NCBI GenBank assembly: GCA_902574425.1
Contig: CACGNA010000004.1
Span: forward strand, 1-61,988
Reading direction: 5' to 3'
Length of the DNA stretch: 61,988 nt
Source of the DNA: an uncultured Prochlorococcus sp.
GTDB taxonomy: Bacteria > Cyanobacteriota > Cyanobacteriia > PCC-6307 > Cyanobiaceae
Part shown: in pieces, positions 57,794 to 61,988 of the stretch
Layout of the letters: every line of letters starts with the position of its first letter
How positions within the stretch are numbered: position 1 is the first letter of the stretch
Translations under genes and position numbers: made by a program
The notes under the pieces: model-generated
Told to the model about the DNA's origin: nothing
The model's input: the letters and a program-made list of their open reading frames with translations, nothing else
Databases searched by the model: none

Positions 57794-58040
57794 ACCTAAT
57801 TAATAGCTTCCAAAAAACATTTAAAAGGTACATGCGATACAAAATCAAAGATTATTTTTTTCATTAATCCATATTAAAATCTAGAAGCTTTGCAATATTT
57901 ATTTAAAGACCTAGTGCTATAAGTTCAGCTTATAGAGGGCATGAGATTAAGTAATTATACTCACACTTATAATCTTCTGCTATTAGATTTATTTCAAGAT
58001 TTCATTAGGAAGCGTCCTAGCTAAACAACTAAACAAACAA

Positions 58041-58175
58041 ATGAACAAATCAAAAACAGTAGAGAAGGAAAAAGTCGTAGCTGAGAAGCTCAACGGTAGA
58101 TTTGCGATGATTGGCTTTATTGCCCTTATTGGCGCATATCTAACAACTGGACAAATTATCCCAGGTTTTGTATAA
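58041..58175 (+). CDS. hli: High-light-inducible protein (HLIP), single-helix
   Basis: 44 aa: 'KEKVVAEKLNGRFAMIGFIA' is the exact chlorophyll-binding signature (A-E-x-x-N-G-R-x-A-M-x-G-F), followed by 'LIGAYLTTGQIIPGFV'. HLIPs bind chlorophyll and carotenoid, protect photosystem assembly intermediates, and quench excess energy under light stress. They are expanded in high-light Prochlorococcus and often sit in islands. The next gene starts at the base after its stop. Confidence 0.96.
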   Translation: MNKSKTVEKEKVVAEKLNGRFAMIGFIALIGAYLTTGQIIPGFV

Positions 58176-58945: not shown

Positions 58946-59269
58946 ATGATTGATGCATATAAAAAGCTATGGACAAAAGCTTTTGATTTTCGTGGCCGAT
59001 CAAATAGACATGATTATTGGTGGGCAGCACTTGCTAATCTTTTAGTTTCTTATGTGCTTTTAGCTTTAGGTAATTTTGTTTCAGAAGCTTTTTCGGGCAT
59101 ATATTATCTCTATATTTTTGCAGCTTTAATACCAGGCCTTTCCCTTTGTATAAGGAGAGTTAATGATTCAGGTAAACGCTGGACATGGATATTTATAAAT
59201 CTAATTCCATTAGTAGGAGCAATTTGGTTTTTATTTATTTTATGTCAGCCATCGATACCAGCAGCCTAG
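58946..59269 (+). CDS. DUF805 membrane protein
   Basis: 107 aa. 'YKKLWTKAFDFRGRSNRHDY' then 'WWAALANLLVSYVLLALGNF' and 'GLSLCIRRVNDSGKRWTW' followed by 'INLIPLVGAIWFLFIL': the F-x-G-R-x-x-R-x-x-Y/F-W motif and R-R-x-x-D-x-G-x-x-x-W motif of DUF805, a three-to-four-helix inner-membrane family. Function unknown. It ends 100 bp before the first att-like repeat. Confidence 0.9.
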   Translation: MIDAYKKLWTKAFDFRGRSNRHDYWWAALANLLVSYVLLALGNFVSEAFSGIYYLYIFAALIPGLSLCIRRVNDSGKRWTWIFINLIPLVGAIWFLFILCQPSIPAA

Positions 59270-59369
59270 ATAATATTTAATAGGTTTCTTACTAATAATA
59301 TTATTTTAGATCGATATTCCAAAAACTAGCAATTCTCAAATGGTCAAAGAAGTGCTTTGGGAAAACTAG

Positions 59370-59400
59370 GTCACAGGCCCAAATCCTGTCGCCCCGATCA
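59370..59400 (+). repeat. att-like direct repeat, left copy (tRNA-Pro 3' fragment)
   Basis: 31 bp including CAGGCCCAAATCCTGTCGCC and then CCGATCA. It has the form of a tRNA T-arm plus acceptor 3' strand (CAGG...CCTG stem, then GCCCCGA), resembling the 3' end of tRNA-Pro, but the T loop has CC instead of the invariant TT. The rest of a tRNA is absent. It matches the copy at 60378 with one mismatch. Confidence 0.8.
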
Positions 59401-59548
59401 TTCATACCAATAGATTATAAATAATTGAGTTAGTCTTATATTGAGAAAGGGTAGCTCTAGGGGTAGCTAGAGTTATGTGCTTTGTATATACTTGTGCCTA
59501 GTTTTCTCCTTATATATAATGTTTTTTGAAACGTCTTAAGTAAGAAAA
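59401..59548. other. Spacer with an imperfect GGGTAGCT repeat
   Basis: 148 bp between the left att-like repeat and the 42-aa gene. Near 59448-59470, GGGTAGCT occurs twice (GGGTAGCT-CTAG-GGGTAGCT) followed by AGAG, which could pair with the CTCT between the copies. No coding frame. Confidence 0.45.
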
Positions 59549-59677
59549 ATGCTCTTTGCAAAAACTGGACAAGGTGTTGATATTTTTTCTCCAATAGGGA
59601 TTTTGATTCTTTTTATTGGGGTTGTTTTGACTGTTGGGTTCCCTTTCGCAATGATTAAGTTCGGCAGAAAGAGCTAG
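59549..59677 (+). CDS. Small single-span membrane peptide
   Basis: 42 aa: 'MLFAKTGQGVDIFSPIGILI' then 'LFIGVVLTVGFPFAMIKFGR' and 'KS'. One hydrophobic helix with a basic tail; the form recalls small photosystem subunits. It lies inside the segment bracketed by the att-like repeats, so it is probably cargo. No family recognised. Confidence 0.6.
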   Translation: MLFAKTGQGVDIFSPIGILILFIGVVLTVGFPFAMIKFGRKS

Positions 59678-60105
59678 TAAGCATTTAATTCCGTAAGTGC
59701 TTCTTCTTTATCAAACAATTAATAATTAATTTTTTATTTAATTTATATATATTTAGCCCAATGAACAGGACCCATATAATTGCAGCGATTATTGGTAAAA
59801 AACGATAACAAGTTTTAACATTTTTAAAATAGTGTTATTTGTTAAAAAATAATATCGTTTAAATAACTAAGAATAGGTCCTTTAACTGAGATTTGAAGAA
59901 AGAATTTAAATATCTATTGCTTGGGGTTCTCCTTCAATTCTTTCAATAGTAAAAAGGGTAAATTCTTTAGTTATAGTCTTAATTTCTTACTTATTCTCCT
60001 CTAATACCCATATATAGGGCTAAATCCAATTTCAAATATATTATCTCAAAAACATTTGCATAATTTCTTACAACTGGTAATTTTAGTGAACTTGAATAAG
60101 TTCAA
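59678..60105. other. AT-rich spacer inside the bracketed segment
   Basis: 428 bp without a convincing gene. On the minus strand at 59906-59985 a frame lacking a start codon reads 'TITKEFTLFTIERIEGEPQA' and 'IDI'; it looks protein-like and may be a gene remnant. Otherwise nothing seen. Confidence 0.45.
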
Positions 60106-60339
60106 ATGCAAGATCAAAGAATTGAAAAGATAGCAGCTTTTGCAGTAAACATAACTAAGGTTCTTTTAGTAATTTATTTAGGCTTCGAAGAAGTATTTAA
60201 AATAGGCAAATCACTTATAGATAAGTTAGATGCTTATTTGGATGTTTTACGAGTGCCTCGAGAATGGGCTTCAGAAGCTTATGCAATACTAAAAAAACGA
60301 CTAGCGGCACGAAAAGTAGCGGGTGGTATAGAAAATTAG
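60106..60339 (+). CDS. Hypothetical protein (possible cargo of the mini-element)
   Basis: 77 aa: 'RIEKIAAFAVNITKVLLVIY' (possible weak membrane or amphipathic helix), then 'FEEVFKIGKSLIDKLDAYLD' and a basic end 'AYAILKKRLAARKVAGG'. No family recognised. Lies 39 bp before the right att-like repeat. Confidence 0.6.
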   Translation: MQDQRIEKIAAFAVNITKVLLVIYLGFEEVFKIGKSLIDKLDAYLDVLRVPREWASEAYAILKKRLAARKVAGGIEN

Positions 60340-60377
60340 TTTTTTACAATCTTGAACTTTTTAAATGTAGAGGAATA

Positions 60378-60408
60378 GTCGCAGGCCCAAATCCTGTCGC
60401 CCCGATCA
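60378..60408 (+). repeat. att-like direct repeat, right copy (tRNA-Pro 3' fragment)
   Basis: 31 bp, same orientation as the copy at 59370, with 27 contiguous identical bases from CAGGCCCAAATC to GCCCCGATCA and one mismatch upstream (GTCG against GTCA). The spacing between copies is 1008 bp start to start. Confidence 0.8.
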
Positions 60409-60555
60409 GTTATAGCAGTAAGTATCAGCTAATATTATATTTCTTTCAAAAAGTCTTTACCTCATATTTTCCTCAAAATAGAAAAATTTAAAGCATTGAT
60501 TTCTGAAATTTCCATATTTATCCTAAAAGAATGGCTCTTCATTTCCTCTCCATAG

Positions 60556-61988
60556 TTAGTTTTTATCTCCTTTCTCTATGATTTCTTCCGGAATCTTTAA
60601 ATTAAGAATTGAGTCAAGAGCTTCTGGAATATTAAGTTGCCTCATCATAAAGTCTCTTACTTTATTTTCTGGACTAAGCAACCATGACCATTTACCTGTA
60701 TTTGGTAAATACATGAAATCTAAATTAATAAGTAGATTATTAAATAATTCATCATATATTTCATCAAAATCTTTTCTTAACAAATAATTTTTTAGCTCAA
60801 TTATTGTATCTTTATTAAAGACTAGAGACAAATCATCAGAACTAGCTTCAACTTTAGATTCGGTAAACTGGCTGATCATAAGGTCAATAGTTGTTCTTGT
60901 TTTAGTTCCAACCCAAGGAAACCACCTTATAAAATCATTACTAGTAAAAATACAATCTTGTGTTTGGAGATTTAGTGTTTCGTAAATATCTCTAGCTTGA
61001 AATAATAATTTCTTAGCCTTTTCATCTAAGAAGTTTGGTATTTCTTTATCTTCATAAATAGTTTTCATCATTTGAAAAATATTTGTATGAATATTTGAAC
61101 CTCCACTGGTTGCGGGTACTGATCCTTTAATGTTTGAATTAATAACGGTTATAATTCTTTTCTCTTCATCAATATTCTTTATTTCCCATTTTTTCCCTCC
61201 GAAAAGTAAATTATCTCCTTCTTTTAATGAGGAATTACAAGGAATTATTCCAATTCTTTTACCAAAGGCGTAAAGTTGGTATTCTTGAAAACTTTCAAAA
61301 CAGGTATAGAAATTAAAATTACTTGTTAAATGGCCACCTTTATCGGATAAATAAATTCTTCGACTAATTTGCAAAATTAGCTCTAATTTCTGAAGGTAAT
61401 TTAATAAATTTTTGAAAATTTCAATATCTAAATTAAACATATTTTTATCCTTAAAGAAAAACCAAATATCTTCAGCTGTAGCTCCTCCTAGCTGCTTAAT
61501 GAGAGCTAGAATTTGATGTGCTGTTATACATAATGATATTGTTGTACGCTCTTCTGTTTCATACCAACCTTCAAGCATTAAATTAATTATTGCTATAGTG
61601 CTAACTAAATTAAATCTAAGTATATTTTCAAAATTTTTATGCTCATTTATACAGTCTTCCACAATAAACATTCTTAGAATTGACTCGTTACCTCTTCTTC
61701 CTGATCTACCTAGTCTTTGACGAAGTGATGAGACTGTAAATGGAGCATTGATTTGAAAAACATTATCAACTGCACCTATATCAATACCAAGTTCTAGAGT
61801 TGCAGTACATACAATTGTCATTGGTTTTTTACCCTCTTTTGCACTTCTCTCAACATCGCGTCTTAGATCATTTGACAATAAGGAATGATGTGGATAAAAA
61901 ACTTGATCTTCATTTTTTACATTTGCCAAGAAATTTCCTTCATAAACAAAATTTTCTACGTTGCTAATAGAGTTCGGGAATACTAAGT
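60556..61988 (-). CDS. Lhr-like superfamily 2 helicase, C-terminal part
   Basis: The frame is open to the window edge, so the start and the N-terminal RecA domain lie outside; 477 residues are visible. The visible part begins in motif IV ('LVFPNSISNVENFVYE') and has 'YPHHSLLSNDLRRDVE' (the H-H-x-S-L-S of Lhr helicases), motif V 'CTATLELGIDIGAVD' and motif VI 'SLRQRLGRSGRRG'. After them come a winged-helix region ('RTTISLCITAHQILALIKQL') and a beta-rich part ('LFGGKKWEIKNIDEEKRIIT'). Such helicases act in DNA repair and, in some islands, in defence. It lies 150 bp from the right att-like repeat. Confidence 0.85.
   Translation of the reverse strand, partial: LVFPNSISNVENFVYEGNFLANVKNEDQVFYPHHSLLSNDLRRDVERSAKEGKKPMTIVCTATLELGIDIGAVDNVFQINAPFTVSSLRQRLGRSGRRGNESILRMFIVEDCINEHKNFENILRFNLVSTIAIINLMLEGWYETEERTTISLCITAHQILALIKQLGGATAEDIWFFFKDKNMFNLDIEIFKNLLNYLQKLELILQISRRIYLSDKGGHLTSNFNFYTCFESFQEYQLYAFGKRIGIIPCNSSLKEGDNLLFGGKKWEIKNIDEEKRIITVINSNIKGSVPATSGGSNIHTNIFQMMKTIYEDKEIPNFLDEKAKKLLFQARDIYETLNLQTQDCIFTSNDFIRWFPWVGTKTRTTIDLMISQFTESKVEASSDDLSLVFNKDTIIELKNYLLRKDFDEIYDELFNNLLINLDFMYLPNTGKWSWLLSPENKVRDFMMRQLNIPEALDSILNLKIPEEIIEKGDKN

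Follow-up and report, generated by a model that had tools for sequence, protein, structure and literature searches.

The window (the whole stretch of DNA analysed, 61,988 nt from an uncultured Prochlorococcus) ends in island DNA: the conserved core gene order stops just left of position 57880, and the island runs from there to the contig end at 61988. It begins with a gene for a 44-aa high-light-inducible protein (58041–58175, forward strand; PHROG hli, 4.6e-20) and one for a 107-aa DUF805 membrane protein (58946–59269, forward; PF05656, 5.2e-21), the last gene of a left module. Two short tRNA-like repeats follow, enclosing two small open reading frames, p42 and p77. On the reverse strand, the C-terminal part of a SngC helicase (60556–61986; PADLOC SngC, 2.6e-102, profile positions 264–714 of 720), cut by the contig end, is all that the window holds of the Shango defence system (SngA, SngB and SngC).

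The repeat pair and the genes it encloses

The repeats form a direct-repeat family of 43 nt (59370–59412 and 60378–60420; 88% identity, spacing 1008) within which 27 contiguous bases are identical (59374–59400 and 60382–60408), as an earlier note on this DNA had described. That note also saw in both the T-arm and acceptor strand of a tRNA with no tRNA body nearby. ARAGORN indeed detects no tRNA gene within 29 kb upstream, and by comparison the repeats are 3' fragments of tRNA-Pro(TGG), which excludes a core unrelated to a tRNA; this identity rests on comparison, the tRNA-Pro gene itself lying away from the window locus. The proposed shape holds for copy 2, which aligns with positions 47–74 of the tRNA alone, but copy 1 is longer than claimed: 59352–59411 aligns with query positions 29–89 at 82%, starting at the anticodon stem. 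Profile match and alignment thus delimit copy 1 as a degenerate fragment extending from the anticodon arm to the 3' end (59352–59397, forward). Copy 2, delimited by repeat search, profile match and alignment, consists of T-arm and acceptor strand only, with the anticodon arm lost (60378–60405, forward). Ahead of copy 1, alignment with G107 and AG-418-F16 reveals by eye a degenerate right-end arm (59308–59351, forward), and both copies are followed by left-end-type sequence on the same strand, from 59398 to approximately 59520 (homologous to G107) and from 60406 to 60550.

The exact version of the 24-bp core, with a CC, occurs in the genome of origin (1.16 Mb in 57 contigs, 65% complete) only at the two window repeats. 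A single further match to the pattern CAGGYY, on contig C19, has TT rather than CC, and a looser search returned 17 tRNA-Pro-like matches, both window copies counted. Among 200 genomes of the genus, near matches to the core (at most two mismatches) were found in seven others, none of them with CC. Because the CC version is absent from all other near matches, the two window copies have a common local history, in line with the shared source proposed before; the common CC suggests conversion between them.

The 42-aa and 77-aa reading frames announced between the repeats both exist, p42, a small membrane peptide, at 59549–59677 (forward; 95% identity in AG-418-F16) and p77 at 60106–60339 (forward). 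Searches of Pfam, PHROGs, PADLOC and NCBIfam gave neither of them a meaningfully scoring family match, and no PHROG matched at E 1. The 60–70 bp ahead of p77 (60036–60105) are nearly invariant in G107 and AG-418-F16, better conserved than p77 itself, and are perhaps a promoter or leader. Relatives of p77 occur in at least 79 Prochlorococcus-type loci, and a tRNA-Pro plus terminator profile detects fragments in 75 of 81 p77-holding loci. Relative to the fragments, p77 has the same orientation in 39 cases and the opposite one in 37, with six lacking a fragment; orientation clusters on the tree, which is poorly resolved (12 changes versus 25.7 in shuffles). L034 (285–4132) is the only p77 locus with fragments on both strands, two each way, as an inversion or the joining of contigs would produce. 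Contig C19 of the genome of origin, which has five tRNA-Pro fragments, carries another p77-like stretch (L128 9968–10320, G000:C19) that shares 82% identity with the window DNA. The protein is modelled as one long helix (pLDDT 82.7, pTM 0.34), and given this single helix a role as recombination directionality factor was dropped. A phage or satellite origin of p77 was likewise set aside: none of 50,697 phage records matched, and of 20 IMG/VR stretches that fit a search pattern none encoded a relative. As the earlier note stated, the segment holds no integrase; the tyrosine recombinase that it proposed to seek in the flanks is absent from the window, the only PF00589 match of the 65% complete genome being on contig C2.

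tRNA-Pro arrays and their cassettes in relatives

Fragment arrays were searched for in the genome of origin and in 11 closed single-contig Prochlorococcus relatives, the islands of nine being taken for analysis. Rows of tRNA-Pro fragments, each downstream of one intact gene, are present in nine of the 11, with one match each in G204 and G206. The nine islands contain 85 matches, all oriented like the one intact tRNA-Pro gene of the island and 0 in reverse: nine intact genes, 73 fragments of the 3' part (3–14 per genome) and three pieces of the 5' part. These same-orientation rows substantiate the context suggested earlier, namely att-type repeats of tRNA 3' ends and tRNA-anchored elements of picocyanobacteria. 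Outlying fragments are seen in G050 (near 1.29–1.31 Mb and 1.69 Mb) and singly in G182, G015 and G022. Across the genus, 241 of 266 genomes and 84 of 87 high-quality ones have tRNA-Pro fragments, scored as presence only from the best three candidates per genome. In the 67 of 73 fragments without indels, columns 29–74 match the gene at 72–100% and columns 1–28 at 0–58%, resulting in a sharp 5' edge at position 29. In G041, G109 and G211 the 5'-part pieces precede the intact gene, ending at positions 41–43; since 3' fragments and 5' pieces overlap in the anticodon arm, we infer that strand exchange takes place there. Coordinates of 5'-half pieces are L141 2837–2878, L150 2603–2642 and, reverse-complemented, 2599–2638 of the G211 island; the genome of origin has one at G000:C22:534–570.

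The 73 segments between fragments have a median length of 2.1 kb. Twelve reciprocal between-genome cassette pairs of at least 300 bp were recovered, three of them forming one trio. Strand is conserved in all 12 and a matching neighbour in one; for the remaining 11, the neighbours differ on both sides in five, and in six the one neighbour that is present differs. Judging from end points counted by hand in the alignments, homology stops 43–142 bp into the right-hand fragment region in nine of the 12 pairs (one further pair is ambiguous), and the left-hand values are 42–227 bp in seven, three of which involve the intact gene. Before the core, TATAGC/GCTATA is found at 30 of 73 sites (random mean 2.8, maximum 9) and GTCTCA/TGAGAC at 20 of 73 (random mean 2.2, maximum 8); after it the motifs are less enriched (14 of 82 each; random means 2.7 and 1.9, maxima 7 and 8). 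We regard them as putative recombinase arm sites, with the proviso that the enrichment overstates independence, the motifs being drawn from related sites. The cargo of the arrays includes Shango-like defence genes: in G025, two tRNA-Pro fragments at a distance of 10.6 kb enclose SngA-like (4.1e-07, weak), SngB (4.8e-125) and SngC (1.3e-198) genes (L167 300–11068).

A complete element is apparent in the closed genome G050, where a stretch of 16,557 bp occurs in two copies, 99.84% identical. Copy A reaches from the intact tRNA-Pro gene (1075748) past a fragment (1092147; the duplicated stretch is 1075772–1092325), and copy B (1290010–1306564, reverse) is located at an ectopic tRNA-Pro fragment, its left site without the tRNA 5' half; L144–L147 cover both. 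The cargo comprises nitrite reductase, a nitrate-reductase-type molybdopterin oxidoreductase, a transporter and molybdenum cofactor genes. Near the right end, whose site is followed by a terminator, the element encodes a 424-aa tyrosine recombinase (PF00589 at 25.4 bits, below the cut-off of 27.1; motifs recognised by eye). In G211 and G107, too, recombinase-like frames are found about 0.8 kb away from a fragment. MIT0604 is described as the only member of its clade with two nitrate clusters, each in an island of its own (PMC6370341); the G050 duplication fits this and is probably the same one.

Decay with distance from the intact gene

Core identity declines with distance from the intact gene (rho -0.76, n=70, eight islands pooled; none of 5000 within-genome permutations as extreme). 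Seven islands taken individually yield rho between -0.94 and -0.53, the weakest being G203 (p 0.053); G211 has no core-identity gradient (rho -0.15), and G015 has too few copies for a single-island gradient. The longest perfect terminator stem also shortens with rank (rho -0.69, n=41 fragments with a terminator; none of 5000 permutations as extreme). A literature search, with most subscription papers outside its reach, returned no report of tRNA-Pro fragment decay along an array. Instead of age, the gradient could reflect gene conversion by the intact tRNA gene, acting more strongly close by. The sharing of cassettes between genomes, tested for polarity, is not correlated with rank (rho 0.07, permutation p 0.27), which speaks against simple ageing and in favour of conversion. 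Nonetheless, conversion of the tRNA part alone would not explain the gradient, because the decaying terminator stems lie outside the tRNA, and near stems differ in sequence; on balance, we hold conversion to be an unlikely source of the gradient.

Origin of the segment and relation to known elements

Core synteny with relatives stops at window 57857–57879 in at least 10 of the 17 genomes searched. Within about 3 kb past this end, G171, G103 and G107 have tRNA-Thr(ggt) and tRNA-Tyr(gta), and the own tRNA-Pro island of G171 is approximately 700 kb from the end point. The island of the window segment lies between the thiD/cupin core and tRNA-Thr/tRNA-Tyr, away from tRNA-Pro; judging by this location, the cassette or its parent appears to have moved between islands. 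Could the contig instead be a chimera of amplification or assembly, in which a thiD-side core was joined to a piece of a tRNA-Pro island? Its left flank is indeed the core near thiD, homologs of much of 59350–60550 are found in the tRNA-Pro islands of relatives, and the assembly is fragmentary at 65% completeness. Yet G107 shares the core-to-island join up to 58661 at 91–93%, and the DUF805 stretch, which is 86% identical to a tRNA-Pro island of G067, is 90% identical in G133 near the same core. Furthermore, DUF805 leads into a recognisable right-end arm, and single tRNA-Pro fragments are present on the thiD side in two closed genomes, G182 and G015 (L157 7784–7827 and L159 5816–5914, the latter about 430 bp from tRNA-Thr), so tRNA-Pro-type sites reach this island elsewhere. 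A chimera therefore seems decidedly improbable.

The homology of the DUF805 stretch ends at 59302 in both G133 and G067. In AG-418-F16 (L012, same contig as L126) and G107 the p42–p77 pair follows a tRNA-Pro fragment, and a further fragment, degenerate in G107, lies past the pair. The window aligns with both past p77 to approximately 60385; G107 then continues for some 85 bases before its degenerate fragment, whereas the window jumps into the T-arm. The stretch 60378–60550 shares 92% identity with G103, in which the fragment has its full length. Since G107 continues past approximately 60385 and the G103 fragment is not shortened, copy 2 would have been made by deletion at short homology; this deletion, like the right-end arm before copy 1, is read off alignments rather than proven. 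What follows each window copy is similar to the left end of the G050 element (GATAGTTATAGCA), so that by eye both copies look like left-end junctions. The earlier note had also proposed comparison with relatives for a clean empty site. Among the matches listed (best two candidates per genome scored) none had such a site with both flanks, which does not demonstrate its absence; the helicase was rejected as an anchor for this search, having at E 1e-20 a match only in the genome of origin and G025 (2/266).

Overall, the segment is likely to be what is left, after decay, of a single cassette that was integrated by a Prochlorococcus system of integrative elements targeting tRNA-Pro(TGG). A recombinase would act by strand exchange within the anticodon arm (GTGC-TTTGGGA-GCAC). 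The tRNA would be made whole again by a 3' half arriving with the element, the old one would be pushed downstream, and repeated integrations would give an ordered row of fragments. Between a DUF805-ended and a SngC module, the window would hold a single module consisting of left end, p42 and p77. A deletion at a short GCAGGTTCA-like homology would have removed its right end and brought what follows p77 directly up to the T-arm of the neighbouring fragment. With both sites degraded, the cassette is probably no longer mobile by itself. Of the readings offered earlier, that of an integrated element or its scar is upheld. A minimal self-standing element or phage satellite with its own att sites, to which two tRNA-derived direct repeats around some 1 kb with two small genes lend an initial appeal, is in contrast very hard to credit: copy 2 is without the anticodon arm and crossover region, left-end-type sequence follows both repeats, unlike an attL/attR pair, and the phage-related genes or particle presence of a satellite find no counterpart in the PHROG search of p42 and p77 or in the phage-record and IMG/VR searches of p77. 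Alternatively, the fragments may only anchor homologous recombination, in which case exchange among repeats of 50–100 bp or with incoming DNA would insert, delete and shuffle small cassettes, site-specific recombination having seeded only some of the copies. The small cassettes without recombinase, the common direct repeats of 46–98 bp, the short-homology appearance of copy 2 and the occurrence of p77 in both orientations would all agree with such shuffling. Still, it fits poorly with two near-identical 16.6-kb copies ending at such sites, a recombinase beside one end, and with the same 5' edge at position 29 across fragments, and we judge it unlikely.

To our knowledge, plasmids and prophages are rare in Prochlorococcus, although gene content differs greatly between cells. 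The tycheposons that Hackl et al. reportedly described from this genus in 2023 are said to be tRNA-bounded and cargo-carrying, with a tyrosine recombinase, partial tRNA repeats and nitrate-assimilation cargo. The G050 element, recombinase included, fits this description. The window segment shares the partial tRNA repeats at its borders, as tRNA-Pro 3' fragments, and differs in having no tyrosine recombinase inside, degraded sites and a position away from its tRNA. Coleman et al. reportedly noted in 2006 tRNA-Pro repeats of 48 bp in a Prochlorococcus island; these are probably the same fragments (positions 29–76 would be 48 bp), and that work is not known to us to cover arm motifs, a gradient of decay or a comparison of cassettes. 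In CIMEs, as in tandem accretion at tRNA genes, modules lie between att sites without an integrase, a CIME having attL and attR and neither integrase nor transfer genes. The window segment likewise has no integrase between att-type sites, but these are degraded, copy 2 is shortened and both resemble left ends. Chromosomal integrons hold small same-orientation gene cassettes between repeated sites, as do the tRNA-Pro arrays, the sites of which are, however, tRNA fragments, and the full elements of which bring their own recombinase. In PMC10872708, tycheposons are given as 4–200 kb, a range that includes the G050 element (16.6 kb) and not the window segment (spacing 1008 bp). The same source describes fGI-2 of Methylophilaceae, an additive flexible genomic island at tRNA-Lys, in which repeated tRNA ends mark modules as in the window system, with another tRNA and host and with 20-bp repeats (PMC10872708). 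In its workings the segment resembles tycheposon-type elements that target tRNA-Pro, from which it is probably descended; by the features tested it is not itself one, and it adds to a known kind, tycheposon-like and tRNA-anchored.

As a relic, the window segment is low in novelty, and its value is that of a lead to the array and of a case in which array DNA lies in a different island. The interesting part, which deserves follow-up, is the polar decay seen along the arrays. It is tempting, if rather doubtful, to regard the tRNA-Pro islands as polar, integron-like arrays, with entry only at the intact gene, small recombinase-less modules moved in trans by the recombinase of the element, through a 46-bp site that runs from the anticodon to the 3' end and bears arm motifs, and fragment decay following entry order; if true, a genome would be readable as an ordered list of acquired cargo, defence systems included. 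The anticodon-arm site and the 424-aa recombinase provide a concrete testable target, and from arrays ordered by age one could see how nitrate-use, high-light and Shango cargo enters and decays.
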